A stretch of 23,244 bases of DNA from a virus: positions 1-23,244 of IMG/VR virus record IMGVR_UViG_3300006754_000184. The stretch is one strand, 5' to 3'. Under the pieces are notes generated by a model, which made no database searches, was not told the origin of the DNA, and saw nothing but the letters and a program-made list of their open reading frames with translations. The position numbers and the translations under genes were made by a program. Shown here piece after piece: positions 4,630 to 23,244 of the stretch. Numbering within the stretch: position 1 is the first letter of the stretch; each line of letters starts with the position of its first letter.

Positions 4630-5946
4630 ATGTTTAAGTGGATTATTGGGTTAATCCCCAAGTTCATCAAAACTTGGTTTACCAATCTTTTATATAAAGA
4701 CATAGCAAAAGAAGGTATTAACGGGGATACTGAACTTGCTTATCTTACACCTTACGAACAAAGTTTATTATTATCTTTGGGAGGAGCTGGTACTTATAAT
4801 AAAAAAACTAATCTTAAACAATATTGGGGACCTTTAGCTATTGGTTTAGCTGTAGGAACAGCTGCGTTTGGAATTGCTAAATTAAGTGGTGCTTCAACCA
4901 AAAAAGCTTTAATGATAGGTGGCCTTGCTGGATTGGGTGTGGGTGGTATTTCTGCATTAACTGCAACAAAAGCCGGCACACTTGTAGGAAGCACTGCAGC
5001 ACAAGCTGGAATGGCAGGGGGAACTGTGCCCGCTACTGCACTAAGTAAAATAGCCGCATCAACAAATCCATTTATTGCTGGTTCAACCACAGGTGGAACT
5101 CTTGGTAACATTGCGGCAGGAGCAGGTGGTATGGCAGGTACAGGTGGTGCAATTTTAGGGCCGGCTGGAGGAGCTTTTGTTCCTATTGCTCAAGGTGGTT
5201 CTGGTCTAAGTATGCCTTTAGGAACTTCAAATATGTTTCAAAATGTAGGTGGTAAAATAATTAAACCCGATGTAATACCTAATGTACCCAGTGCATCAGG
5301 GGGTGCTTTAGATGTGGGGGGTGGTATAAAGTCTTTTGGAACTAAAGCTTTGGATTATATTGAAGAAAACCCACTTTCAACAATAGGTGGAGGGGCTACA
5401 CTATTAAGTTTGGCTTCACAACAAAAACCAGTTTATGACACAGGAATTGATCAACTTGAATTTGCAGATATGGAAGGTGAAATATATAGAAGAGAAAGAG
5501 AAAAAACCCAACCTATGAGTGATCGTTTTGTTTATGATGACGAAGAACTTCCAGAAAATATATACGATAGACCTGATTTTCAACCCGTCATGGTGGCTAG
5601 AGAAGGTGGTTTGGCAACCCTTAAATTAAAAGAAGGCGGTATTAACTATTTACCTAGTAAATTAGAACATAACGAAAAAGATTCAAATAACTATGTAAGA
5701 GCAAAGGGTTATGTTGAAGATGGTTCTGGTGTAGGGGACAAAGATGAAGATACAATGTTAGCGCAATTAGCTGATGGTGAGTTTGTATCTAGAGCCGATG
5801 CTATTTTGGGTGCTGGTATTATGGAAGGTGCAAATCCTGAAGATTTTAAAGATATGCGAAAAAAAGGAGCTCAGTTTTTTTATGGGCAACAAGACAAACT
5901 TAAAAGAATTTATGATATTGTAAGTGATGCAAATAAAGAAAGTTGA
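4630..5946 (+). CDS. Gly/Ala-rich virion or ejection-type protein sharing an N-terminal module
   Basis: This 438-residue protein opens with an amphipathic segment (MFKWIIGLIPKFIKTW) and a charged block with DTELAYLTPYEQ. A long hydrophobic Gly/Ala-rich middle follows (residues about 70-260, for example LAVGTAAFGIAKLSGAS). The C-terminal half is soluble, with DEDTMLAQLADGEFVSRADA near residues 373-392 and KGAQFFYGQQDKLKRIYD near the end. From memory, this C-terminal 'LADGEFV.R.DA...GAG' motif is frequent in virion proteins of marine podoviruses. The first 65 or so residues are about half identical to those of the 354-residue protein at 6327. A membrane-active internal virion role is inferred. 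Confidence 0.65.
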   Translation: MFKWIIGLIPKFIKTWFTNLLYKDIAKEGINGDTELAYLTPYEQSLLLSLGGAGTYNKKTNLKQYWGPLAIGLAVGTAAFGIAKLSGASTKKALMIGGLAGLGVGGISALTATKAGTLVGSTAAQAGMAGGTVPATALSKIAASTNPFIAGSTTGGTLGNIAAGAGGMAGTGGAILGPAGGAFVPIAQGGSGLSMPLGTSNMFQNVGGKIIKPDVIPNVPSASGGALDVGGGIKSFGTKALDYIEENPLSTIGGGATLLSLASQQKPVYDTGIDQLEFADMEGEIYRREREKTQPMSDRFVYDDEELPENIYDRPDFQPVMVAREGGLATLKLKEGGINYLPSKLEHNEKDSNNYVRAKGYVEDGSGVGDKDEDTMLAQLADGEFVSRADAILGAGIMEGANPEDFKDMRKKGAQFFYGQQDKLKRIYDIVSDANKES

Positions 5947-7394: not shown

Positions 7395-9095
7395 ATGGAT
7401 AAGACTTTACTCAGACCTTTATTTCAAAAAAGATATATGGAGCTACACAAACCTGTAAAAGCTTTTGCGGGTTTGTTTGCACAAAAACAAGATCCCAATC
7501 AAAATATGCAAGTGGCTAATTTAATGCCTGATGCAAGTGCCCCTGTAAGAGATGTACAAAGAAGGGAATTACCTGCACCTGGTATTACTGAGGCTCTTAG
7601 ACAAGGTTTTGACGAAAGTAACGAAGCCACAAGAATAAAAAAGAATGTAGAAGCAATTGGTGAAGGAAGAAAAAAGGTTACTGATGGAATTATGTCATTA
7701 AGTCCCAAAGAAGATGAGAGATTAAGTCCAGACGTACGAAAAGAACTAGTTAAACTATCTCAACAAGGTAAAGTATTAGAGGAAAGTGAAAAGATAGTTG
7801 CAAAGCCAGCTTCAGAGCCTTTATTTAGTGATGGCGAAAAAAAAGGAATATTTGCGGCACAACTAGCTATGGCATTAGCAAAACCGGGAGATCCCTTTGC
7901 TAATTTAGCAGGCGGTTTAGGTATGGGTGCTATGAGTCTTGCTGATTTAAAAGCAACTGAAGCAGAGATTGATGCACAAAAAGTGAAATTTTCTAAAACT
8001 AAAGAGGCTATTGATTCAACGACAGGCAAAAAAGTATTTGTAACTGAAGCACAAATTCAAACCACTATGAACCCTGATGGATCACCTAGGTACGCACCAA
8101 AAGGCGAAACAGCAAATTTAACCATAGGAGCTTATAAGGTAAGACAAAAAGATGGGACTTATAAAAATCTTAATGTTCCAAAACATTTAGTTGCAAAAGC
8201 TTTTTTAGCTGGTGATTATGAAAAATATTTGCCAATAGATAAAGAGTCTGGAGATCAAATTAAAGTCGTAAAACTACTTAGAGAATATGGTGGTTTGAAA
8301 AAAAATGAATTTTTTCATGTGACAGAATCAGACCTTCGTAAAGATTTAGAAAGAGCACCTGAAGATAGACTTTTTGGACCAGCAAAATTAACAGGAACTC
8401 AGATTGCAGAAAATCTTTTACTATCAGAAGGAGTTAGAGAAAAGATGAAAAATCAATCAAAATTAGGTGATGAAATGAACAGAGCAGAACCAGTTATTGA
8501 TTTAATTTATGAAATTAAAAGAGATCTTACAAAAGTAAAAGCAGGTTCTGTAGGAGCATTAGCTCGTGGAGCTGGTAAATTAGAATCTCTAGGTGAGTTT
8601 GTAGGTATATCAAGAGATAATGATGAATATGGTTATGAAAATTATAGTAATGTAAAACAAGCCATAGAGAATCCTGAACAGTTTGCAAAAGATCAAAAAT
8701 TATCAAAAGAGGATACAGAGAGATTTATGGACATTGCAGATATTTTTAAAACAGAAACACAAAAATTATCAGCAGAATTACAAACAAAAGTAATTGAATT
8801 AGCCTATGCGATAGCAAAATCAAGGGAAGAAGGTGGTCGTTTCTCTGTTAGTGATATTGAATTGGCTATGAAATCAATAAATGCTGGTATTGATAGTGAA
8901 CAGTTTAAATCAAGTCTAGACGCTTTAGGTAGAAGAGTTCTACGTCAACCTTTATTAAATTACAAACGTTTTTACGAGAATGATCCAAATAAATTAAAAG
9001 GTGAACAATATCAAAAAATGATGAAAGCTTTAGAAGATTTTTCTGGTGTGAAAAGAATGGGAAAACCACCACTCTTAGATGATGAATTTAACTAG
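7395..9095 (+). CDS. Large virion-associated protein (566 aa), function unknown
   Basis: The product has an N-terminal part with KAFAGLFAQKQDPNQ and a hydrophobic stretch near residues 154-185 (IFAAQLAMALAKPGDPF, LAGGLGMGAMSLAD) that could be a membrane-active helix pair. A long charged, helical C-terminal half contains segments such as KQAIENPEQFAKDQKLSKED and KTQ/ELQTK-type heptads. No catalytic motif is recognised. Size, order and composition match internal virion proteins that enter the cell with DNA in T7-like and P22-like phages. It starts three bases after the preceding stop, and the next gene follows at nine bases. The family is not recognised with certainty. Confidence 0.65.
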   Translation: MDKTLLRPLFQKRYMELHKPVKAFAGLFAQKQDPNQNMQVANLMPDASAPVRDVQRRELPAPGITEALRQGFDESNEATRIKKNVEAIGEGRKKVTDGIMSLSPKEDERLSPDVRKELVKLSQQGKVLEESEKIVAKPASEPLFSDGEKKGIFAAQLAMALAKPGDPFANLAGGLGMGAMSLADLKATEAEIDAQKVKFSKTKEAIDSTTGKKVFVTEAQIQTTMNPDGSPRYAPKGETANLTIGAYKVRQKDGTYKNLNVPKHLVAKAFLAGDYEKYLPIDKESGDQIKVVKLLREYGGLKKNEFFHVTESDLRKDLERAPEDRLFGPAKLTGTQIAENLLLSEGVREKMKNQSKLGDEMNRAEPVIDLIYEIKRDLTKVKAGSVGALARGAGKLESLGEFVGISRDNDEYGYENYSNVKQAIENPEQFAKDQKLSKEDTERFMDIADIFKTETQKLSAELQTKVIELAYAIAKSREEGGRFSVSDIELAMKSINAGIDSEQFKSSLDALGRRVLRQPLLNYKRFYENDPNKLKGEQYQKMMKALEDFSGVKRMGKPPLLDDEFN

Positions 9096-9103
9096 GATTA
9101 AAA

Positions 9104-12100
9104 ATGGAATTATTTACAGTAGATGAATTAAGAGAAAAGTATCCAAAATACAAGGATAGCACTGATGAAGAGGTTAGTGAAAAATATTTAACACATATAA
9201 ACAAACTTAGAGATTATGAAAATGAAGCACCTGCCAATTATTATTCATTTATAAGAGTTGTAAATCCTAACTCACCTGATGCTAATTTACAAAAATATAA
9301 ATCCAATTTAGATCCAGATATAGTGAATGAAAAATCTGATGGGCAACATGCATTTGATGTTTTCAAAAAACTTAAAGAAGAAAGAAATCTGCCTATGAGA
9401 TTTAGAGATTTTGTTGAAGAGTATGCCCCAAAATTTTCAGTGCAATCTACTCTAGGTTCTGGACAGTATTCAGCTCAAGAAACAGAAAGAGTTCAACAAC
9501 CTTATTCAGATGGTGAAATAGCGGACATTACAGGAGTGGCTAGGTCTGACCCTGATTTCACAACTGTAAAAAGTAGAGCGGTAGGTAGTTTAGCTATGGA
9601 TGAAAAAAATCTTGCTCAAGCTATTCGTAATGAGGCATCTAAATATTTTGGTCAAGATGTAGAGGTTAGACGGGGACCAAATACAAATCAACTTGAAGTT
9701 TTTAATCCTCGACAAGGTCGCTTTCAATTAGTTAACAAACCTGGTTTGGATTTAGGTGATTTTAGTTCTTTAACAGGTGATTTAGCAGTGTCTATTGGAG
9801 AAATTTTAGGTACAATTGGTGGTTCAATGGTTGGACCTGTAGGATCAATAGGTGGAGGAGCCATAGGTGCTACTGCTGGTGATATGGCTAGAATGTATGT
9901 AGGTCACGAATTTTTTGACATAAACCCAAATTTAAAAGATTTTGATGACTATCTTAGTGAGTCGTATGCAACAGGACTTATTTCTGGTGTTAGTGGAACA
10001 TTGTTCAAAATACCAGGCATGACCTCCGCAATTAAAAATATTTATAAAAAACTTATGGACAAAAAAGAAATTTCAGATGCTGATTTAGCGGTTTTTGAAA
10101 AAGAGATAGGCGATACTAAAAAATTAAAAGATAAAATGAATGCAAGAATCGCAGACAATAAATTAAAAAGTCAGTTAAAATTTAACCTTGGTCAAGTAAC
10201 TAATGACCCAGAATTATTGGCATGGGCTAATGCTTTTGAAACACATTCAAAATATGGAGTAAAAGGTGAATTTCATCAAATGAATAAAAATAATGCAGCT
10301 GCTGTCAAAGATTTGTTTGAGTTATTTCGTCAGGGTTTTGTGTCCAAAAATCTATTAGGTAAAAATGCTGAGGGTTATGATATTGTTTTAAAACGACTTC
10401 AAGATAAAGCCAAAGCTTTAAACAGTGCAGAAAGAAAACCTTTAATTGAGGCTCTTCAAAAATCTGAAGATGATTTAAGTGATGCTGTTTTACAGTTTCC
10501 AAATGGCATAAAAAAAGAGGGAGGACAGTCTATAAAATCTGGTATTACTGAGTTTCAAGATTTACGAAGAAAAGATATAGAGAAAAAATATAAAAACTTA
10601 TTTAAAGGCACAGATGAATCTGAAGGAATGGCTTTAAGAAAATTACCTCTAGACCCAGACACACAAACATATAAGGTAATTGATGATGCTTTAAAAGCAA
10701 TTAGTGCTAGAGGTAAACAGACTTTAATGAAAAATTACCCTTCAATTAAAAGTATGATTAATATGCCTAAAAAAGGACAACAAATTAGTTTTCAAACTTT
10801 GCACAACACTAGATCTGATCTTCTTAGATTAAAAAGAAATTTGCAAGCAAAAAAACTTACTGCTGAAAACACACCTGACGAACAACAACTTAATAGTTTA
10901 ATTAAGGCTATAAATAAACAGATGGATGCCGGTCTTGGTCCAGACGATCCAATGTTAAAAATGTATAGAACAATTGATGATGAAGCTAAAAGTTTTTATG
11001 AAGATTATAATAGATTTATTGGACAGTTGGTGCAAAAAAATGGAGGACGTTTAAATATTGGAGATGAAGATATTTTTCTTACAACATTTAAAACAGGCAA
11101 AACACAACAGTCAAGAATAGATGATGTTTTTGATGTTTTAAAAACTGATTCTGAAAAAATGGATTTATATAAAAATAATATATTAGAATACTATATGTCA
11201 AAAGTTGACCCACAAAATTTGGGTAAAATTAATTTAGGAGCACACAGAAAATTTATTCAAGATCACAAATATGGTTTAGAAAAATTTTTTGGAAAGGATG
11301 GCTATAAAGAAATTACTAATGTTGGTAATTTACAAAAAAAAGTTGATGCTATTAATAAACAAAATAACGAAATAAGCAAAAAATTAAGTAAAACGACTGC
11401 GGGGCAAATAGAAAATAGGGACCCAGAAGAAATTTATGATTTTGCTTTTTCTCCAAGTCAGTTTGGTGGTGCAAGACCCACAAAATTAAAAGAACTTATG
11501 AATATTATTAAAGATGACGAAATAACAAAAAATGAATTTAAAACATTGGTTAGTCAAAGGTTGATGCTTCAATCAACTGATCCAATGGATTTTACTTTTG
11601 ATGCAAAAAAATTTAATAAATTTTTAGCAGAGAACAAAGAAAACCTTAAAATAGTTTTTGCTGATGATAAAAAATACCTTGATGATTTAAATGATTTTAA
11701 TAAGGTTCTATCTATCCTTGGTAGAACAACAAAAGATGCTCCTCCAGAAAGGTTTCGTTCTGCTTTAAGAGATTTAATAAGAGCAAAAGTAGGTATGTTT
11801 ACAGTAGCAGGCAGAACGATGACAGCGGGTATCAAAATAAGTGAGAATATGCTTAATAAAAAAATGGCACAGATAATTCAAAACCCAGAAGAATTAAGTC
11901 AACTAATTAAACTTGCAGATAAACCTCCAAGTTTTTTACAGACAGAAAAGGGAAAAGCAATTGTTAAAACTTTGTTTGGGTCTATTCCAGCGATGCAACA
12001 ATTTGATGTTACACCTGACCTTGAGGATGTCAGACAAAAGGATATTAAAAGAACAAAAAAAATAGATATTGACGATCAGTCTGCAGCACCATCTCCATTG

Positions 12101-12292
12101 GTAGATATGTTCGCTATGGAACAAGCACCACAACTTACGGACCCCGCTTCTGTGCCACCTCCTCCTATTGAACAACCTCAACCAGCTGGAATATCTTCTT
12201 TACCACAAGATAGAGCACAACAATATGCAGGTTTGTTTCCTAACGATCCTTCAGGTCAAATGATTGCACAACGAGGAAACCAAGATGCCTGA
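9104..12292 (+). CDS. Very large internal virion/ejection-type protein (1062 aa)
   Basis: This is the largest gene in the window. TAGGA at 9093-9097, six bases before the ATG, gives a good start. Residues about 222-265 form a Gly-rich hydrophobic segment (SIGEILGTIGGSMVGPVGS, GGGAIGATAGDMA) that could span or insert into a membrane. The rest is mostly charged and helical, with many Lys/Asp/Glu-rich coiled-coil-like stretches. The C terminus is Pro/Gln-rich (PPPPIEQPQPAG) and ends in a YAGLFPNDPSGQMIAQ motif that, from memory, recurs in pelagiphage virion proteins. A DNA-ejection conduit role, as for T7 gp15/gp16-like proteins, is inferred. No lysozyme-like domain is visible. Confidence 0.65.
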   Translation: MELFTVDELREKYPKYKDSTDEEVSEKYLTHINKLRDYENEAPANYYSFIRVVNPNSPDANLQKYKSNLDPDIVNEKSDGQHAFDVFKKLKEERNLPMRFRDFVEEYAPKFSVQSTLGSGQYSAQETERVQQPYSDGEIADITGVARSDPDFTTVKSRAVGSLAMDEKNLAQAIRNEASKYFGQDVEVRRGPNTNQLEVFNPRQGRFQLVNKPGLDLGDFSSLTGDLAVSIGEILGTIGGSMVGPVGSIGGGAIGATAGDMARMYVGHEFFDINPNLKDFDDYLSESYATGLISGVSGTLFKIPGMTSAIKNIYKKLMDKKEISDADLAVFEKEIGDTKKLKDKMNARIADNKLKSQLKFNLGQVTNDPELLAWANAFETHSKYGVKGEFHQMNKNNAAAVKDLFELFRQGFVSKNLLGKNAEGYDIVLKRLQDKAKALNSAERKPLIEALQKSEDDLSDAVLQFPNGIKKEGGQSIKSGITEFQDLRRKDIEKKYKNLFKGTDESEGMALRKLPLDPDTQTYKVIDDALKAISARGKQTLMKNYPSIKSMINMPKKGQQISFQTLHNTRSDLLRLKRNLQAKKLTAENTPDEQQLNSLIKAINKQMDAGLGPDDPMLKMYRTIDDEAKSFYEDYNRFIGQLVQKNGGRLNIGDEDIFLTTFKTGKTQQSRIDDVFDVLKTDSEKMDLYKNNILEYYMSKVDPQNLGKINLGAHRKFIQDHKYGLEKFFGKDGYKEITNVGNLQKKVDAINKQNNEISKKLSKTTAGQIENRDPEEIYDFAFSPSQFGGARPTKLKELMNIIKDDEITKNEFKTLVSQRLMLQSTDPMDFTFDAKKFNKFLAENKENLKIVFADDKKYLDDLNDFNKVLSILGRTTKDAPPERFRSALRDLIRAKVGMFTVAGRTMTAGIKISENMLNKKMAQIIQNPEELSQLIKLADKPPSFLQTEKGKAIVKTLFGSIPAMQQFDVTPDLEDVRQKDIKRTKKIDIDDQSAAPSPLVDMFAMEQAPQLTDPASVPPPPIEQPQPAGISSLPQDRAQQYAGLFPNDPSGQMIAQRGNQDA

Positions 12293-17338: not shown

Positions 17339-18922
17339 ATGCATAAGGAATTGTTATCGTTGTTTCAAGGCGATGACTCCCGTTATCTCAAGTCCTCTCT
17401 TACGGGAGAGGACGATGAGAGGGGAAAAAGACAAGCCAATTATGTCACTGTGCATGAATCTGTTACAGAGGATATATGGAAACAACATCTTGAAGGTAAA
17501 ATTAGATTAGGCCTAAAACCAGAAGTGGATGGTCTTTGTAAATGGGGATGTATAGACGTTGACCCTAATAATTATAAAGATTACTCAGAGAAAAAGTATG
17601 TAGAGATTATCAGAAAATATTCTTTACCTTTTGTTCCTGTAAAATCAAAATCGGGTGGTCTACACATTTTTATATTTTTTACTGAAATGGCTGATGTTAA
17701 AAAAGTCGTTGCAAAATTATCTGAAATAAATGAACAGTATTTTTTAGCGCAGGAAATATTCCCATGTAATAAAGCTGTAAATATGCCTTATCACAATATG
17801 AATGCCTCTATGGAGTTTGCTTTTGATGCAAAGAACACTCCTGTAATGATTGGACGTTTTTTACAACTTGCGCAAGATATGATGATTTATCCTAAGGATT
17901 TTTTTAATTTTAAAGTTCAAGAATATGAGGCAGAATCTGAATGGAAACACTACCCACCTTGTGTTCAAAAACTAATACAAGAAGGGTGGAGTGGTAGTAA
18001 TAGAAATAATTTTTTATTCAATATTCTTGTTTTAGAAATGAAAAAAAACAGCACTTTATCTGTACAACAGTTAGAGGACTTGGCACAAAAAAGAAACAGA
18101 CAAGTGTTCTCAAAACCTTTGGGTCAATCAGAGGTATCTCAATTAACTAAATCTGTACATAAAGGAGGTTATCAGTTTCAGTGCCCTCCAAAACACCCTG
18201 AGTATAACCAAATATGTAATAAAGAATTATGTAAGACTAGAAGATTAGGTATTGGTGAGGCTGTGCCGGAGATTGTTGAAGCTTTTGAAAACATTAACTA
18301 CATTCAAGATACTAAAAGTGTGTGGTATGAATTTGATTTTAAAGGCCGTAGAATCACTATTACTCCAGAAGATATGAAAGATGAAAAATCTTTTAGAGTT
18401 AGATTACTTAGACATAGAGTTTATTGGCTAACCTTACCTAAACAAAGAAAAGGTCCTGATCCATTTGAATTGTTAATGAAAAGTATAGTTGAAAAAGCTA
18501 TAGAATCTACAGATCACTCTTATAAAGATACTGTTGAAGAAGAGCGCTATATGGTGTTAAAAGATTTTTTTGAATCACATATTGAGCAAGATAAATTTGA
18601 TAAATTAAAAGATGGTTATGTGGTGTTGGATTCTAAATCCAATGTATGTTATTTTAAGAAGTTGACTCTTGACCGTTTTCTCAAGAAACACGCCTCACGA
18701 ACCTTTCACACTACCGCAGATGCTTTAAGGATGTTGAGTTGTAAAAGAATGGATTATAAAGAGGGTGAAAAAAATGTATGGTATGTTGATATGCCTGAGT
18801 TTGTAAATCATCAAGTAATTAAGAAAAACCTAAAGAAAAACGAAATAAGCGAAATGGATGAGGAGTATCATGATAAATTCAGGGATCCAAAAACAAAAGA
18901 ACCTACACAAAAAGACGATTAA
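17339..18922 (+). CDS. Archaeo-eukaryotic-type primase (AEP family)
   Basis: This 527-residue protein has AEP primase motifs: CIDVDPNNY with D73 and D75 (DxD metal-binding), then VKSKSGGLHIFIFF with H109 (the SxH motif), and a later EFAFD stretch that could supply the third acidic residue. Priming DNA synthesis is expected. A region near residues 281-299 has CPPKHPEYNQICNKELC, a Cys-rich patch that may bind metal. The C-terminal third (PFELLMKSIVEKAIES and beyond) is helical and of unknown role. It lacks the TOPRIM domain and N-terminal zinc finger of DnaG or T7 gp4, and no helicase motif is present. The UvrD-like helicase overlaps its 3' end. A strong hairpin lies at 17392-17413 inside the gene. 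Confidence 0.8.
   Translation: MHKELLSLFQGDDSRYLKSSLTGEDDERGKRQANYVTVHESVTEDIWKQHLEGKIRLGLKPEVDGLCKWGCIDVDPNNYKDYSEKKYVEIIRKYSLPFVPVKSKSGGLHIFIFFTEMADVKKVVAKLSEINEQYFLAQEIFPCNKAVNMPYHNMNASMEFAFDAKNTPVMIGRFLQLAQDMMIYPKDFFNFKVQEYEAESEWKHYPPCVQKLIQEGWSGSNRNNFLFNILVLEMKKNSTLSVQQLEDLAQKRNRQVFSKPLGQSEVSQLTKSVHKGGYQFQCPPKHPEYNQICNKELCKTRRLGIGEAVPEIVEAFENINYIQDTKSVWYEFDFKGRRITITPEDMKDEKSFRVRLLRHRVYWLTLPKQRKGPDPFELLMKSIVEKAIESTDHSYKDTVEEERYMVLKDFFESHIEQDKFDKLKDGYVVLDSKSNVCYFKKLTLDRFLKKHASRTFHTTADALRMLSCKRMDYKEGEKNVWYVDMPEFVNHQVIKKNLKKNEISEMDEEYHDKFRDPKTKEPTQKDD
17392..17413 (+). other. Strong RNA hairpin with UACG loop inside the primase gene
   Basis: GTCCTCTC (17392-17399) pairs with GAGAGGAC (17406-17413). 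An added U-G pair (17400 with 17405) leaves a TACG loop. This resembles an UNCG tetraloop and is unusually GC-rich for this genome. A second inverted repeat, CTCCCGT (17377-17383) with ACGGGAG (17402-17408), overlaps it, so two alternative folds are possible. Confidence 0.55.
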
Positions 18923-20480
18923 AATATTTGGTCCTCCAGGTACAGGAAAAACATATACTTTAATAGAAAGAGTCTTAAAAGGTTATCTTAATAAAGGGGT
19001 ACACCCTAAAGACATTGCTTTTATCTCATTTACAAATAAAGCCGTGAACACAGCTAGAGATAGAGCTTTAGCTAATTTTACTAAATACACAGAAGATGAT
19101 TTCGAAAGATTTAAAACGTTGCATAAATATTGTAGGAGATATTTTGAAGAAGAAGTTTTTGACCCTAAAGATTGTATGTTGGACTATGCTTTACAAGCTA
19201 AAATAATTAAAACATCTGATAAAAGACTAACGGATGATGGTTTTACTTATAAAGATTGGTCTTTAGGAATTTATGATAAGGCTAGAAATATGATGCAAGA
19301 TCCACGTTTAATTTACAAAAAGGAATCTTATAAAAAAGATAACCTTGATATTTTTTTAAGAAAAATAGACACTTATGAGCACTATAAAAAAGATTCTTTT
19401 ATTGATTTTACTGATATGATAGAAAGAGCCATTGATGAGGTTGAGTTTCCCCCACTTGAAGTCTTAATTCTTGATGAAGCTCAAGATTTTACTCCACTGC
19501 AATGGTCTGTTATTTATAAAATGACAGATAAGGTTAAAAGGGTTTATCTAGCTGGTGACGATGACCAAGGTATTTATAAATGGAATGGTGCAGACCCAAA
19601 ATATTTTACGACTTACTTTCCTGGAAGACAAGTTATACTTAGAAAAACTAGGCGTTTTGGGAAGTCTATACACCACTTTTCACAAATAATTAGAAGAGGT
19701 ATATTAGATAGTGTAGAAAAAGATTATAACCATTTAGACAAAAATGGTTTTGTAAAAAGGTATCTAAATTTTAATGAGGTTCCTTTTGGTAAACTGACGG
19801 GAACTTGGTATATTCTTGGTAGAGTGCGTTCAACTGTTAATGAATTAAGAATGTGCGCTAAGGATGCGGGACTGTATTATTCAGATAATCGTAATAATAA
19901 ATCCTTTGATCAAAAGCAATGGGATGCTATAAAATCTTGGACTAGAATAACAAAAAATAAAAAAATCACTAGGGATCAAGCAGAAAATATGTATAAATAC
20001 ATAAGAGAATTAGTTGATATGGATTTTAGAACCCCTAAATTTTGGCAAAATATTTCAGAAACTCAGTTTTTTAATTTTAAGGATTTAAAAGAATGGGCTG
20101 GTTTAGCTCTTGATGATGATCAAGAAAAACAACCTTGGTGGAAGATATTAAAAAGAAATTTCCAACCTAAACAGATAATTTATTTTATAAGATTGCTAAA
20201 AAGATATGGTCAACAAACTCTTAATCAAGACCCTCAAATTATAATTGATACAATTCATTCTGTTAAAGGCGGCGAGGCAAACAACGTTCTTATATATTCT
20301 AAAACAAATTGGCCTGCTTCTTTTACTAAGAAGAACAAAGACGAGAAATCAGATGAAAAAAGAGTTTATTATACAGGGGTTACTAGAGCAAAAGATTCTT
20401 TACATATTCTTTCAACTGATTATAAATATAATTACCCTATAGGTTCAGACTATTTGGTATATCTACAGGAGAGCAAATGA
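18870..20480 (+). CDS. UvrD/Rep-like SF1 DNA helicase
   Basis: The start at ATG 18870 is chosen because GAGGAG (18860-18865) lies four bases before it; an ATG at 18858 is in frame but less supported. The protein (536 aa) has motif I FGPPGTGKT (20-28), a FISFTNKAVNTARDRA segment (motif Ia), motif II LDEAQDF (residues 201-207), motif III GDDDQGIYKWNGA, a DTIHSVKGGEANNV motif V, and YYTGVTRAKDSL motif VI. This is the full set for an SF1A 3'-5' helicase like UvrD. It overlaps the primase by 53 bases. In a genome segment without a visible DnaB/T7 gp4-type helicase, it may be the replication or recombination helicase. That role is inferred. Confidence 0.85.
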   Translation: MINSGIQKQKNLHKKTIKIFGPPGTGKTYTLIERVLKGYLNKGVHPKDIAFISFTNKAVNTARDRALANFTKYTEDDFERFKTLHKYCRRYFEEEVFDPKDCMLDYALQAKIIKTSDKRLTDDGFTYKDWSLGIYDKARNMMQDPRLIYKKESYKKDNLDIFLRKIDTYEHYKKDSFIDFTDMIERAIDEVEFPPLEVLILDEAQDFTPLQWSVIYKMTDKVKRVYLAGDDDQGIYKWNGADPKYFTTYFPGRQVILRKTRRFGKSIHHFSQIIRRGILDSVEKDYNHLDKNGFVKRYLNFNEVPFGKLTGTWYILGRVRSTVNELRMCAKDAGLYYSDNRNNKSFDQKQWDAIKSWTRITKNKKITRDQAENMYKYIRELVDMDFRTPKFWQNISETQFFNFKDLKEWAGLALDDDQEKQPWWKILKRNFQPKQIIYFIRLLKRYGQQTLNQDPQIIIDTIHSVKGGEANNVLIYSKTNWPASFTKKNKDEKSDEKRVYYTGVTRAKDSLHILSTDYKYNYPIGSDYLVYLQESK

Positions 20481-20980
20481 GTCCTTATTTTGAAGATTTA
20501 AAACTACACCCTTATCACGATGGTGCCGTATATAATAAAATATGGGATCCAGAAACGAAATGGGTTGAATATTTTAATTTTACTGCTTGCTTAATTGATA
20601 ATGATATTATGATGAAAGATCATTTTTATAAGTGGTTATATGAAAGACATCCCTTTAAAACCGGAGTTTTAAAAATGGAACATAAGACAATGTACAATTG
20701 GCATGCAGATTCTACAAGAGGTGTATGTATTAATAGTATAATCCAAACACCCAATACTTCTTTTACTTTCTTTAGAGGGGCAAAAGAGGTTAATCACGGT
20801 TTAATTGAATTACAGTATTATCCAGGCGCTAGGTTTTTATTTAACAATCAAAAAGAACATATGGTTTTGAATTATGATGGTGATAGGTATGTTTTGACCA
20901 CTGAATTCTTAGAAGATAAAGATGAATTGACTTACATAGATTTACTAAAAGAGATTGAAAATGACTATTACAAAAAATAA
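20477..20980 (+). CDS. 2OG-Fe(II) oxygenase-like protein
   Basis: This 167-residue protein shows the iron-binding triad pattern of 2-oxoglutarate oxygenases: NWHAD (H76, D78) and EHMVLN (H128), followed by R137 nine residues later, the usual position for 2-oxoglutarate binding. A PGARFLFNNQ strand precedes the distal His. Such enzymes hydroxylate or otherwise modify proteins or bases, and they are common in marine phages, where the substrate is usually unknown. AGGAG near 20468 gives a good ribosome-binding site, and the ATG overlaps the helicase stop as ATGA. It ends within the DUF3310 gene start. Possible links to DNA modification with the nearby methyltransferase are speculative. Confidence 0.6.
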   Translation: MSPYFEDLKLHPYHDGAVYNKIWDPETKWVEYFNFTACLIDNDIMMKDHFYKWLYERHPFKTGVLKMEHKTMYNWHADSTRGVCINSIIQTPNTSFTFFRGAKEVNHGLIELQYYPGARFLFNNQKEHMVLNYDGDRYVLTTEFLEDKDELTYIDLLKEIENDYYKK

Positions 20981-21188
20981 AGAATCTGATTTATGGAATA
21001 AAGGTGGTCAATATTATAGAAATTTTAAAATACAACCTTCTCAGTTTATTAATGAAAATAAAATTCTTTTTGCTGAAGGTAATGTAATAAAATATATATG
21101 TAGGCATCAAGGGAAAGGTGGTAAACAGGATTTAGAAAAAGCTAAACATTATATAGAAATGATAATAGATAGAGATTATGGCGCTTAG
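20961..21188 (+). CDS. DUF3310 small protein
   Basis: The start at ATG 20961 is preferred over TTG 20955 because AAGAGA lies a few bases upstream. The 75-residue product contains QPSQFINENKILFAEGN, VIKYICRHQGKGGKQDLEKA and HYIEMIIDRDYG. These match the DUF3310 pattern 'QP.EFI....L.F.EGNVIKYi.RH..K.G..DL.KA.HYLE', a small phage family of unknown function. It is a compact helical protein found in many phages near replication or nucleotide-metabolism genes. It overlaps the oxygenase-like gene by 20 bases and the methyltransferase by 11 bases, so the three are in one translational run. Confidence 0.8.
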   Translation: MTITKNKESDLWNKGGQYYRNFKIQPSQFINENKILFAEGNVIKYICRHQGKGGKQDLEKAKHYIEMIIDRDYGA

Positions 21189-22800
21189 TGTATTGGATCT
21201 ATTTTCTGGTATTGGTGGTTTTAGTTATGCCTTTGAATCTACTGGTCATTTTGAAACAGTTGCTTTTTGTGAAAATAATAAGTTTTGTCAAAAAGTTTTG
21301 AAAAAAAACTTTCCAAATGTTAAAATATATGAAGATGTAAGGAGTATAAATGGAAAAGAAATTAAAGCAGATGTCGTTGCTGGAGGATTCCCTTGTCAAA
21401 GTTTCTCCGTTGCAGGAAAAAGAAGAGGCACAGGAGATGATCGCTATCTCTGGCCAGAAATGTTTCGAGTTATTACCGAAGTCAAACCAAGCTGGGTGGT
21501 TTGGGAGAATGTGCAAGGAATTATTAACATCGAAAACGGCTTGGTACTCCGACAGGTGCAAGATGACTTGGAAAAAGAAGGTTTCCAAAGCAGATGTTTT
21601 GTTATTCCAGCTAGCGGTGTCGGTGCATGGCACCAAAGAAAAAGGATCTGGGGAATCGCTTTCAACGAAAACAACTGGTTTGATACATACCCCAACAGCA
21701 AAGGCAAATCAAGTATCTCCAAGTATGGTGAATCGGGACAAAGGGAGTTGGGGGAATCACATGTATGCGACTCCCAACACAATGGACCATCTACCACCCA
21801 GGAGCAAAGAGGGAACACTCAAACTGCAACAGGGTCACAGGAAGGGAAGAACTCTTCCACCCAATCTAAGAGAACAAGTAGATCCACAGACAATGGCAAT
21901 GTATCCAACTCCCAATGCTTGGGATGGAATGAGAGGACCAAGATCGGAGAAACACATCAGGGAAAACCCAAACAGTCAGATAACTCTAGTGACAAAAGTA
22001 GCCCAAATAGAGAGAAAGAAGATGTATCCAACTCCCAACACCAACGATGGAGCGACCAATCCGGCAGAGGACATAGAGAATTGGGAGAAAAGAGCAGAGA
22101 AAAAGAAAAAAGAGGGGATCAATCTGCATTATGCTCTTCGACACGCAGTGCAGAAAGAGGAACAGATGAAGATGTATCCAACTCCCAGAACAGGAGCAGG
22201 GAGCAGACCCAATGGCAAGGGAGGGAAAGTATTGGAAGAGGAAGTGATGATAGAAGCAGGCTTGAGAGAGAGGGGAAAAACATTGAAACAGATGTATCCA
22301 ACTCCAGTAGCGAAGGACAATTGTTCAGAGAGTCTGGAAAGTTGGGAGAAGAGAGCAGAGAAACACAAGGAGCAAGGGAAAACGATACCCAAAGCTCTCA
22401 GAATAAAAGTGCAGGAGGAAGCCAAGATGTACCCAACACCCACGACTCAGGACTCACGGATCGGTCCAAACAACATCAAGGGGAGCGAACACCGAAAGAA
22501 AAGAGGGAGTCCAGCACTAGCCGATTCAATTCTGTTTCCAACTCCAACGGCAAGGGATTACAAAGATATGGGGTACAAACCCAGCTGGAAACCAAGTCGG
22601 GACAAGAGTCTTCCAAGAGAGGTGCTGAAGAGCAACACACATGGTGGGAGGCTAAACGTGAATTTTGTGGAGTTCCTAATGGGGTTTCCTACGAATTACA
22701 GCGAGATAGAGTCAGTAGAATAAAAGCATTAGGTAATTCAATAGTTCCTCAAATCGTCTTTCAAATAGCTCAAGCAATAATAAAAAGTAAAAATGACTAG
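21178..22800 (+). CDS. C5 cytosine DNA methyltransferase with an unusually long low-complexity recognition region
   Basis: This 540-residue protein has the C5-MTase motifs in order: motif I LDLFSGIGGFSYAFE (6-20), motif IV GGFPCQSFSVAGKRRG with catalytic C73, motif VI ENV (110-112), motif VIII HQRKRIWGIA (152-161), and motif X RIKALGNSIVPQI near the C terminus. It should transfer a methyl group from SAM to cytosine C5. The stretch between motif VIII and motif X (about 345 residues), where the target recognition domain sits, is Ser/Gln/Arg/Glu/Lys-rich and holds DVSNSQ-type repeats. It is far longer than usual. The reason is visible: the same DNA encodes a nested protein in the +1 frame (21350-22723). 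The start overlaps the DUF3310 gene. Protection from host restriction is the likely role. Confidence 0.85.
   Translation: MALSVLDLFSGIGGFSYAFESTGHFETVAFCENNKFCQKVLKKNFPNVKIYEDVRSINGKEIKADVVAGGFPCQSFSVAGKRRGTGDDRYLWPEMFRVITEVKPSWVVWENVQGIINIENGLVLRQVQDDLEKEGFQSRCFVIPASGVGAWHQRKRIWGIAFNENNWFDTYPNSKGKSSISKYGESGQRELGESHVCDSQHNGPSTTQEQRGNTQTATGSQEGKNSSTQSKRTSRSTDNGNVSNSQCLGWNERTKIGETHQGKPKQSDNSSDKSSPNREKEDVSNSQHQRWSDQSGRGHRELGEKSREKEKRGDQSALCSSTRSAERGTDEDVSNSQNRSREQTQWQGRESIGRGSDDRSRLEREGKNIETDVSNSSSEGQLFRESGKLGEESRETQGARENDTQSSQNKSAGGSQDVPNTHDSGLTDRSKQHQGERTPKEKRESSTSRFNSVSNSNGKGLQRYGVQTQLETKSGQESSKRGAEEQHTWWEAKREFCGVPNGVSYELQRDRVSRIKALGNSIVPQIVFQIAQAIIKSKND
21338..21344 (+). promoter_or_regulatory. 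Strong Shine-Dalgarno sequence of the nested +1-frame gene
   Basis: TAAGGAG lies inside the methyltransferase coding sequence, five bases before ATG 21350, the first codon of the nested frame. It is one of the best ribosome-binding sites in the window and decides the nested start. Confidence 0.7.
21350..22723 (+). CDS. Nested +1-frame protein with (Y/F)PTP repeats inside the C5 methyltransferase gene
   Basis: A 457-codon frame lies wholly within the methyltransferase gene, shifted by one base, with TAAGGAG five bases before its ATG. The N-terminal part reads over the methyltransferase catalytic region and contains ISGQKCFELLPKSNQAGW and CKMTWKKKVSKADVLLFQL. From about residue 113 there are eight copies of an (H/Y/F)xTP(N/T/R/V/A) motif at about 26-50 residue spacing, usually MYPTPxxxD. 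Two units share WEKRAEK and ALRxxVQ. The C terminus has GGRLNVNFVEFLMGFP. From memory, proteins ending 'LNP.FVEWLMGFP.GW' are annotated near or as phage C5 methyltransferases. Codon differences between repeat units favour this frame. The role is unknown; a methyltransferase partner is a guess. Confidence 0.65.
   Translation: MEKKLKQMSLLEDSLVKVSPLQEKEEAQEMIAISGQKCFELLPKSNQAGWFGRMCKELLTSKTAWYSDRCKMTWKKKVSKADVLLFQLAVSVHGTKEKGSGESLSTKTTGLIHTPTAKANQVSPSMVNRDKGSWGNHMYATPNTMDHLPPRSKEGTLKLQQGHRKGRTLPPNLREQVDPQTMAMYPTPNAWDGMRGPRSEKHIRENPNSQITLVTKVAQIERKKMYPTPNTNDGATNPAEDIENWEKRAEKKKKEGINLHYALRHAVQKEEQMKMYPTPRTGAGSRPNGKGGKVLEEEVMIEAGLRERGKTLKQMYPTPVAKDNCSESLESWEKRAEKHKEQGKTIPKALRIKVQEEAKMYPTPTTQDSRIGPNNIKGSEHRKKRGSPALADSILFPTPTARDYKDMGYKPSWKPSRDKSLPREVLKSNTHGGRLNVNFVEFLMGFPTNYSEIESVE
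21686..22546 (+). repeat. Dispersed 15-bp DNA repeat read in two frames
   Basis: A core close to ATGTATCCAACTCCC occurs at 21761, 21899, 22022, 22172, 22292, 22427 and 22532, with a weaker copy (CATACCCCAACAGCA) at 21686. Distances between the seven strong copies are 138, 123, 150, 120, 135 and 105 bases, all multiples of three. In the methyltransferase frame the repeat reads (D/N)VSNS; in the nested frame it reads MYPTP. A longer repeat around TTGGGAGAAAAGAGCAGAGA occurs at 22081 and 22342. Confidence 0.8.
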
Positions 22801-23244
22801 CCTACAACTTACCTTTAATTTTAAAAAACATATTTGGTCTGCGCCCAACGATTATAAAGATCTGTCTGGAGTAGAAGAAATAGCCATTGATCTTGAAACT
22901 AGAGATGAGGGAATCAATGAAGGTTTAGGAGCAGGTTGGGCTACCAAAAAAGGAGAAATAATAGGATTTGCAGTAGCTACCGAAGGTTGGCAAGGTTATT
23001 TTCCTTTTGGTCATTTTGGTGGTGGTAATTTAATAAAAGAGCAAGTTCTTAAATATATGAATGATGTTTGCGCTTTACCTTGCAGAAAAATTTTTCATAA
23101 TGCTCAATATGATGTTGGATGGTTGAAAGCTTATGGAATTGATGTAAAAGGTGAAATAGTTGATACTATGGTTGCTGGAGCCTTGATTGATGAGAATAGA
23201 TACACTTATAAACTAAATGCTTTGGCTAAAGATTACCTAGGCGA
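22793..23244 (+). CDS. Family A DNA polymerase, N-terminal 3'-5' exonuclease domain (partial)
   Basis: The gene starts at ATG 22793, overlapping the methyltransferase stop by eight bases, and runs off the window after 150 codons. The visible part has IAIDLETRD (Exo I motif, DxE) near residue 34 and FHNAQYDVGWLKAYGI near residue 103 (Exo II, NxxxD). A VDTMVAGALIDE stretch follows, as in the N-terminal proofreading domain of DNA polymerase I and T7-like polymerases. The polymerase domain is outside the window. With the primase, SSB and helicase upstream, it completes the phage replication set. The family call rests on the exonuclease part only. Confidence 0.85.
   Translation, partial: MTSLQLTFNFKKHIWSAPNDYKDLSGVEEIAIDLETRDEGINEGLGAGWATKKGEIIGFAVATEGWQGYFPFGHFGGGNLIKEQVLKYMNDVCALPCRKIFHNAQYDVGWLKAYGIDVKGEIVDTMVAGALIDENRYTYKLNALAKDYLG

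Follow-up and report, generated by a model that had tools for sequence, protein, structure and literature searches.

Does one stretch of phage DNA encode two proteins at once, and if so, what does the inner one do? The question is raised by a locus in the window, a 23,244-nucleotide stretch of viral DNA (IMG/VR record IMGVR_UViG_3300006754_000184), where a C5-cytosine methyltransferase frame of 540 aa (alpha, plus strand, 21178-22800) contains a nested +1-frame protein of 457 aa (beta, plus strand, 21350-22723). The initial annotation had noticed two long frames open together here and had suggested that the nested protein acts as a partner, a regulator or an anti-restriction factor. Both frames are confirmed at these positions, and the evidence makes it very likely that the locus encodes a naturally split C5-cytosine methyltransferase whose two subunits lie in overlapping frames. 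The pair sits within a replication module (window 18858-23242), with a helicase upstream; directly before it lies a small ORF matching nucleotide-kinase families, and directly after it a DNA polymerase gene begins. Elsewhere in the window, the large ORFs at 7395-9095, 9104-12292 and 4630-5946 have no PHROG match at 1e-4.

Two open frames and a conserved register

Alpha matches PF00145 (E 2.9e-48) and phrog_363 (E 1.4e-64), and its residues 3-165 match M.HhaI. It carries motifs I, IV (PCQ), VI (ENV), VIII and X of the C5 methyltransferase catalytic domain. The Pro-Cys-Gln of motif IV (21391-21399), which includes the catalytic Cys73, is invariant in alignment A2, and GNSIVPQ at the alpha C-terminus is motif X (22708-22797, RVSRIKALGNSIVPQ...). 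No motif-IX-like string was found in the alpha frame of any homologue.

The beta ORF runs from the ATG at 21350 to the stop at 22723 and lies entirely within the 540-codon alpha ORF, in register +1; the third frame of the overlap contains 31 stops. When the alpha protein is held fixed and codons are drawn from the phage's other genes, the nested frame is expected to contain 14.5 stops, against 0 observed, and none of 20,000 draws was free of stops. With the beta protein fixed, about 50 stops are expected in the alpha frame, or 23 if its own codons are permuted, and again none is observed. GC at codon position 3 is usually low in this phage (0.19 in the other genes and 0.14 in alpha before the overlap); the overlap loses this signature, with values of 0.49/0.48/0.42 by alpha codon position.

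Homologues keep the arrangement. A search with the nested protein recovered 40 viral loci; those with enough sequence all show a nested ORF in this same register. Because selecting for the nested frame had to be avoided, another viral search used only the methyltransferase N-terminal alignment as query, and all 79 new loci it found carry the nested frame in +1. Stops in this frame beside an intact alpha were named by the initial annotation as evidence against a second protein; in the homologues the frame was kept. Among genome loci selected through beta that also have alpha, beta is in the same +1 register in 76 of 79, as it is in 6 of 7 phage records. Searching bacterial genomes with the nested protein gave loci in Bacillota, Bacteroidota, Pseudomonadota, Acidobacteriota and others, many of which are probably prophages. 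Most of the loci are of metagenomic origin and mutually related. Across alpha residues 61-165, the +1 frame is stop-free in 98.7% of real loci versus 4.2% of own-codon permutations. Both ORFs of the overlap are annotated in Paenibacillus phage Tadhana and E. coli phage K1G, and the long ORF alone in Lactobacillus phages R9.1 and Lc-Nu and mycobacteriophage Zerg.

Sequencing error or a frameshift artefact was considered and ruled out, since more than 100 contigs share the register. Two individual loci depart from the common layout. In a marine phage (L044; KT997847.1, 1240-2400), annotated as two separate methyltransferase genes, alpha seems to be frameshifted near its beginning and the N-terminal part of beta contains a stop, through sequencing error or decay. 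In L080 (860-1465), the beta ORF with its N-terminal domain runs into the motif X string usual in the alpha frame, so the frames switch inside the overlap.

Beta has its own candidate start. The Shine-Dalgarno-like TAAGGAG lies on the plus strand at 21338-21344, five bases before the ATG, as first described, and sits where alpha encodes V-R-S. Of 104 testable loci, 96 retain an ATG close to the beta start, against 75% when alpha codons are permuted, and 59 combine an ATG with a Shine-Dalgarno match of at least 5 bases, against 9.6% of codon-permuted controls. The loss of site and ATG from homologues, raised earlier as a possible objection, therefore has a mixed outcome: the ATG persists, but its combination with a strong site is absent in 45 of 104 loci, so initiation of beta is not proven in every locus. 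Independent initiation appears to be the likeliest route to beta. Programmed frameshifting from alpha, which would yield a fused chain with motifs I-VIII, the modules and motif IX, is improbable as the general route. It could draw on those 45 loci, on the existence of single-chain fusions and on mycobacteriophage arrays divided between frame 0 and +1 (as in L220), but any useful shift site would come downstream of the beta N-terminal domain, whose conservation exceeds that in codon-permuted alpha, the ATG with its site is enriched about six-fold, and motif X remains in frame 0, with alpha held open to reach it. At loci lacking a clear start site, frameshifting may still operate.

Division of constraint between the frames

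Which protein is selected where can be read from the register, in which alpha codon positions 1, 2 and 3 correspond to beta positions 3, 1 and 2. Mismatches were compared between 114 unique loci, and 52 disjoint pairs give similar values. Substitutions by alpha position 1/2/3 are.26/.18/.56 in the alpha-only 5' part and an intermediate.35/.18/.47 in the overlap with motifs IV-VIII. Over the modules of beta they become.62/.21/.17, falling mostly at the beta wobble position, and the same pattern (.61/.27/.13) marks the beta-only 3' extensions that some homologues have past the alpha stop. The motif IX stretch is intermediate again, and the alpha-only 3' part with motif X is alpha-type in homologues (.22/.11/.67). 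The codon-position pattern therefore identifies beta as a real, selected protein.

Judged by these substitutions, constraint rests on alpha across motifs I-VIII and X, whereas across the modules purifying selection acts on the nested frame, with alpha a passenger that merely stays open. The methyltransferase frame, described at first as certain from its motifs, keeps that standing for motifs I-VIII and X and loses it over the modules. The excess conservation in the +1 frame that had been proposed as a test of a second protein is present there, and together with the kept frame it strongly supports two proteins from one stretch. The passenger stretch of alpha is a long hydrophilic linker with VSNS repeats, the frame-0 reading of the modules (plus strand, 21691-22640). 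Alpha is open across the modules in 96 of 96 loci, compared with 5.1% after permuting beta codons, which argues that a full-length alpha ending in motif X is needed.

That the nested frame is a chance by-product of conserved alpha codons or purine-rich composition has a negligible probability. Permuted alpha does still score weakly with the profile of the beta N-terminal domain (median 51.5 bits, versus 104.7 bits in real loci), and for this reason the resemblance of that domain alone is weak evidence. Against chance stand the stop counts, the reversal of codon positions over the modules and the beta-only coding past the alpha stop in six homologues (L019, L024, L030, L032, L038 and L039). A chance ORF is ruled out by codon randomisation together with the codon-position patterns. 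A +1 resemblance forced by alpha codons was likewise rejected: permuted alpha gives about half of the beta N-terminal score and many stops.

The extensions of those six homologues hold an extra domain of about 130 residues after motif IX, beyond the alpha stop, with the pattern YRTPT-MD ... KIEHWFRKD-CFSYP--EDWN-IKP. The same domain lies inside the cassette array in L016 and L017.

The nested protein and the probable split enzyme

Beta matches phrog_1008 (E 9.3e-31), as do 30 of 30 beta proteins in alignment A1; the PHROGs label of this family, "DNA methyltransferase", names the enzyme and not the nested subunit. Direct searches of beta against Pfam and the PDB gave no match. An AlphaFold2 model of beta alone has a mean pLDDT of 41, too poor for a structure search, and leaves the cassettes without a modelled fold. 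The main part with pLDDT above 50 is the N-terminal domain (plus strand, 21350-21685), which overlies alpha motifs IV-VIII and is also supported by its profile score.

An atypical first module, HTPTAKAN... (plus strand, 21686-21763), follows this domain and is defined from sequence and alignment A3. Seven (Y/F)(P/A)TP modules then occupy 21764-22642 on the plus strand: W1 at 21764-21901, W2 at 21902-22024, W3 at 22025-22174, W4 at 22175-22294, W5 at 22295-22429, W6 at 22430-22534 and W7 at 22535-22642. Homologues gain, lose and rearrange such modules whole. The spaced (Y/F)PTP motifs and the GGRLNVNFVEFLMGFP ending reported at first are both present, as seven typical modules with one atypical module in front. 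The ending (plus strand, 22643-22690) aligns by hhalign (E 1.1e-5, probability 82%) with motif IX as it occurs in frame in the single-chain enzymes of mycobacteriophages. On this short 21-column profile match and on position, beta is taken to end in the motif IX that alpha lacks.

The single-chain enzymes provide a comparison. PHappiness gp71 and many related mycobacteriophage methyltransferases carry (L/Y)PTP cassettes in frame, with motif VIII on one side and motifs IX-X on the other. These methylases share with the window the cassettes ahead of motif IX; they differ in being one chain, with cassettes mostly in the methyltransferase frame, whereas the window has two chains. A model of one fused chain matches the M.HhaI fold (VIA Z 23, rmsd 3.6-3.7, 242 residues), with low confidence over the cassette stretch. 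When beta is compared with fused enzymes by hhalign, motif IX is aligned and the cassettes are not, and the equivalence of the cassettes rests on their shared PTP start, length and position. A spliced alpha-beta-alpha query gains 9 bits against PF00145 over alpha without the insert and 3 bits over alpha with its own linker end, but it also produces a second matched stretch, so this evidence is weak.

Among mycobacteriophages, Cheoctovirus-type loci (L220-L252) place their LPTP cassettes in frame 0 or +1, or divide them between the two; L220 has two in +1 and four in frame 0. It looks as if indels between cassettes had moved them from one reading frame to another. In phages Rebeuca, Vorrps and Float294 (L208, L209, L213), the overlap is shorter and AquI-like, and the +1 beta holds the modules, motif IX and motif X.

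The presence of beta follows the state of the catalytic domain. Among 30 C5 methyltransferases in 20 bacterial genomes, beta accompanies 10 of 10 with a split or truncated PF00145 match, that is, a truncated match with no motif IX-X piece in the same ORF, and because these genomes were picked for holding beta, the count describes an association within them and not an overall frequency. The 20 one-chain enzymes in the same genomes lack beta; 18 have a full PF00145 match, and two (L275 and L276) have a match divided into two pieces within a single ORF.

Phage anti-restriction proteins are common and beta has no Pfam match, so one might see in it an independent regulator, or a separate anti-restriction protein whose gene just happens to overlap that of the methyltransferase. 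Such a reading is highly improbable, since motif IX is on beta and missing from alpha, one-chain relatives have the same modules in the TRD slot, and beta presence tracks the split PF00145 domain. The same evidence leaves the suggested separate regulator or anti-restriction factor unsupported and favours the suggested partner in a more specific form, as the putative recognition and motif IX subunit of the same split methyltransferase. The whole enzyme is probably what acts against restriction, by methylation.

Comparable divisions are known. The small subunit of M.EcoHK31I is encoded within the large-subunit gene in another frame, and M.EaeI is likewise a two-polypeptide C5 methyltransferase. 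In motif layout, the window resembles M.EcoHK31I, which has motifs I-VIII and X on the large subunit and motif IX on the small one (PMC3404938). The TRD of M.EcoHK31I is assigned to its large subunit, whereas here it is apparently a tandem array in beta; because the modules are selected in the beta frame, the window enzyme is likened to this type and not classed with it. M.AquI is split in the variable region and also has motif IX on its second subunit (PMC3404938), but there motif X is on beta as well, while in the window it stays on alpha; the M.AquI layout, in +1, is that of Rebeuca, Vorrps and Float294. A literature search, with most subscription journals outside its reach, found no description of this overlap.

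Exchangeable cassettes and their probable role in target recognition

Across the loci, insertion, loss and reordering affect entire modules. In L001, one module has been gained and another lost relative to the window, and the rest of the sequence is near-identical. The DNA of W3 is 99-100% identical to that in L003 and L005, whose alpha 5' parts are only 65-66% identical to the window. Distinct modules number 247, with a median of 41 residues. They begin [YWF]PTPx[AT], and 62 of them fit P[STCA]PT[ILVAT], a loosened form of the TL motif consensus of known TRDs, P(STCA)PT(ILV)(TASV) (PMC2413257). In known enzymes this motif lies 10-50 residues before motif IX (PMC2413257), and the start of the last module falls within that range, at about 41 residues across loci and 36 in the window. 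Tandem recognition-type modules between motifs VIII and IX are carried by beta in the window; single-chain relatives have them in frame. They are probably DNA-recognising target-recognition cassettes.

By analogy, we infer that each cassette reads its own DNA target. Since phages differ through gain, loss and reordering of cassettes, the enzyme probably has several specificities, protecting phage DNA from several restriction enzymes. A split enzyme with one specificity, in which the cassette next to motif IX alone reads DNA and the others are decoys, spacers or relics, is possible rather than probable. It would fit the 36-residue distance of the last cassette and the common occurrence of loci with 1-3 cassettes, yet the modules as a class are strongly constrained in the beta frame and are swapped intact, and Bacillus phages (SPbeta, phi3T) array several TRDs in one polypeptide against many R-M systems (PMC12707154). 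Those enzymes share with the window the arrayed recognition domains but are single-chain, whereas the window array belongs to a second subunit encoded in the overlapping frame.

The proposed split, multispecific enzyme would work like M.EcoHK31I crossed with the SPbeta type. Alpha would supply AdoMet binding and catalysis through motifs I-VIII, along with motif X, and its linker would only bridge motif VIII to motif X. Beta, starting inside alpha at its own ribosome-binding site, would supply the conserved N-terminal domain, motif IX and, between them, a tandem array of cassettes that start with (Y/F/W)PTP and are about 41 residues long. The two subunits would bind each other, and with each cassette reading its own target, one enzyme would methylate several sequences and so protect the phage against several restriction enzymes.

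On a wider scale, we lean slightly towards a widespread class of phage and prophage methyltransferases in which specificity is held as exchangeable cassettes overlapping the catalytic frame, with one target per cassette and shuffling that retunes protection. If so, each cassette must be open in two frames and coding in one. The overlap is long, well conserved and on the same strand, with frames that divide the labour, and occurs in phages of many hosts and in bacteria of several phyla. Annotations often show such loci as a single gene, or as a pair of unexplained "DNA methyltransferases"; the specificity subunit would then be missing from many of these annotations, and the "TRD" read in the methyltransferase frame would often be a meaningless linker. 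Methylome sequencing of cultured phages, for example mycobacteriophages, could show which target specificities belong to this set of cassettes.
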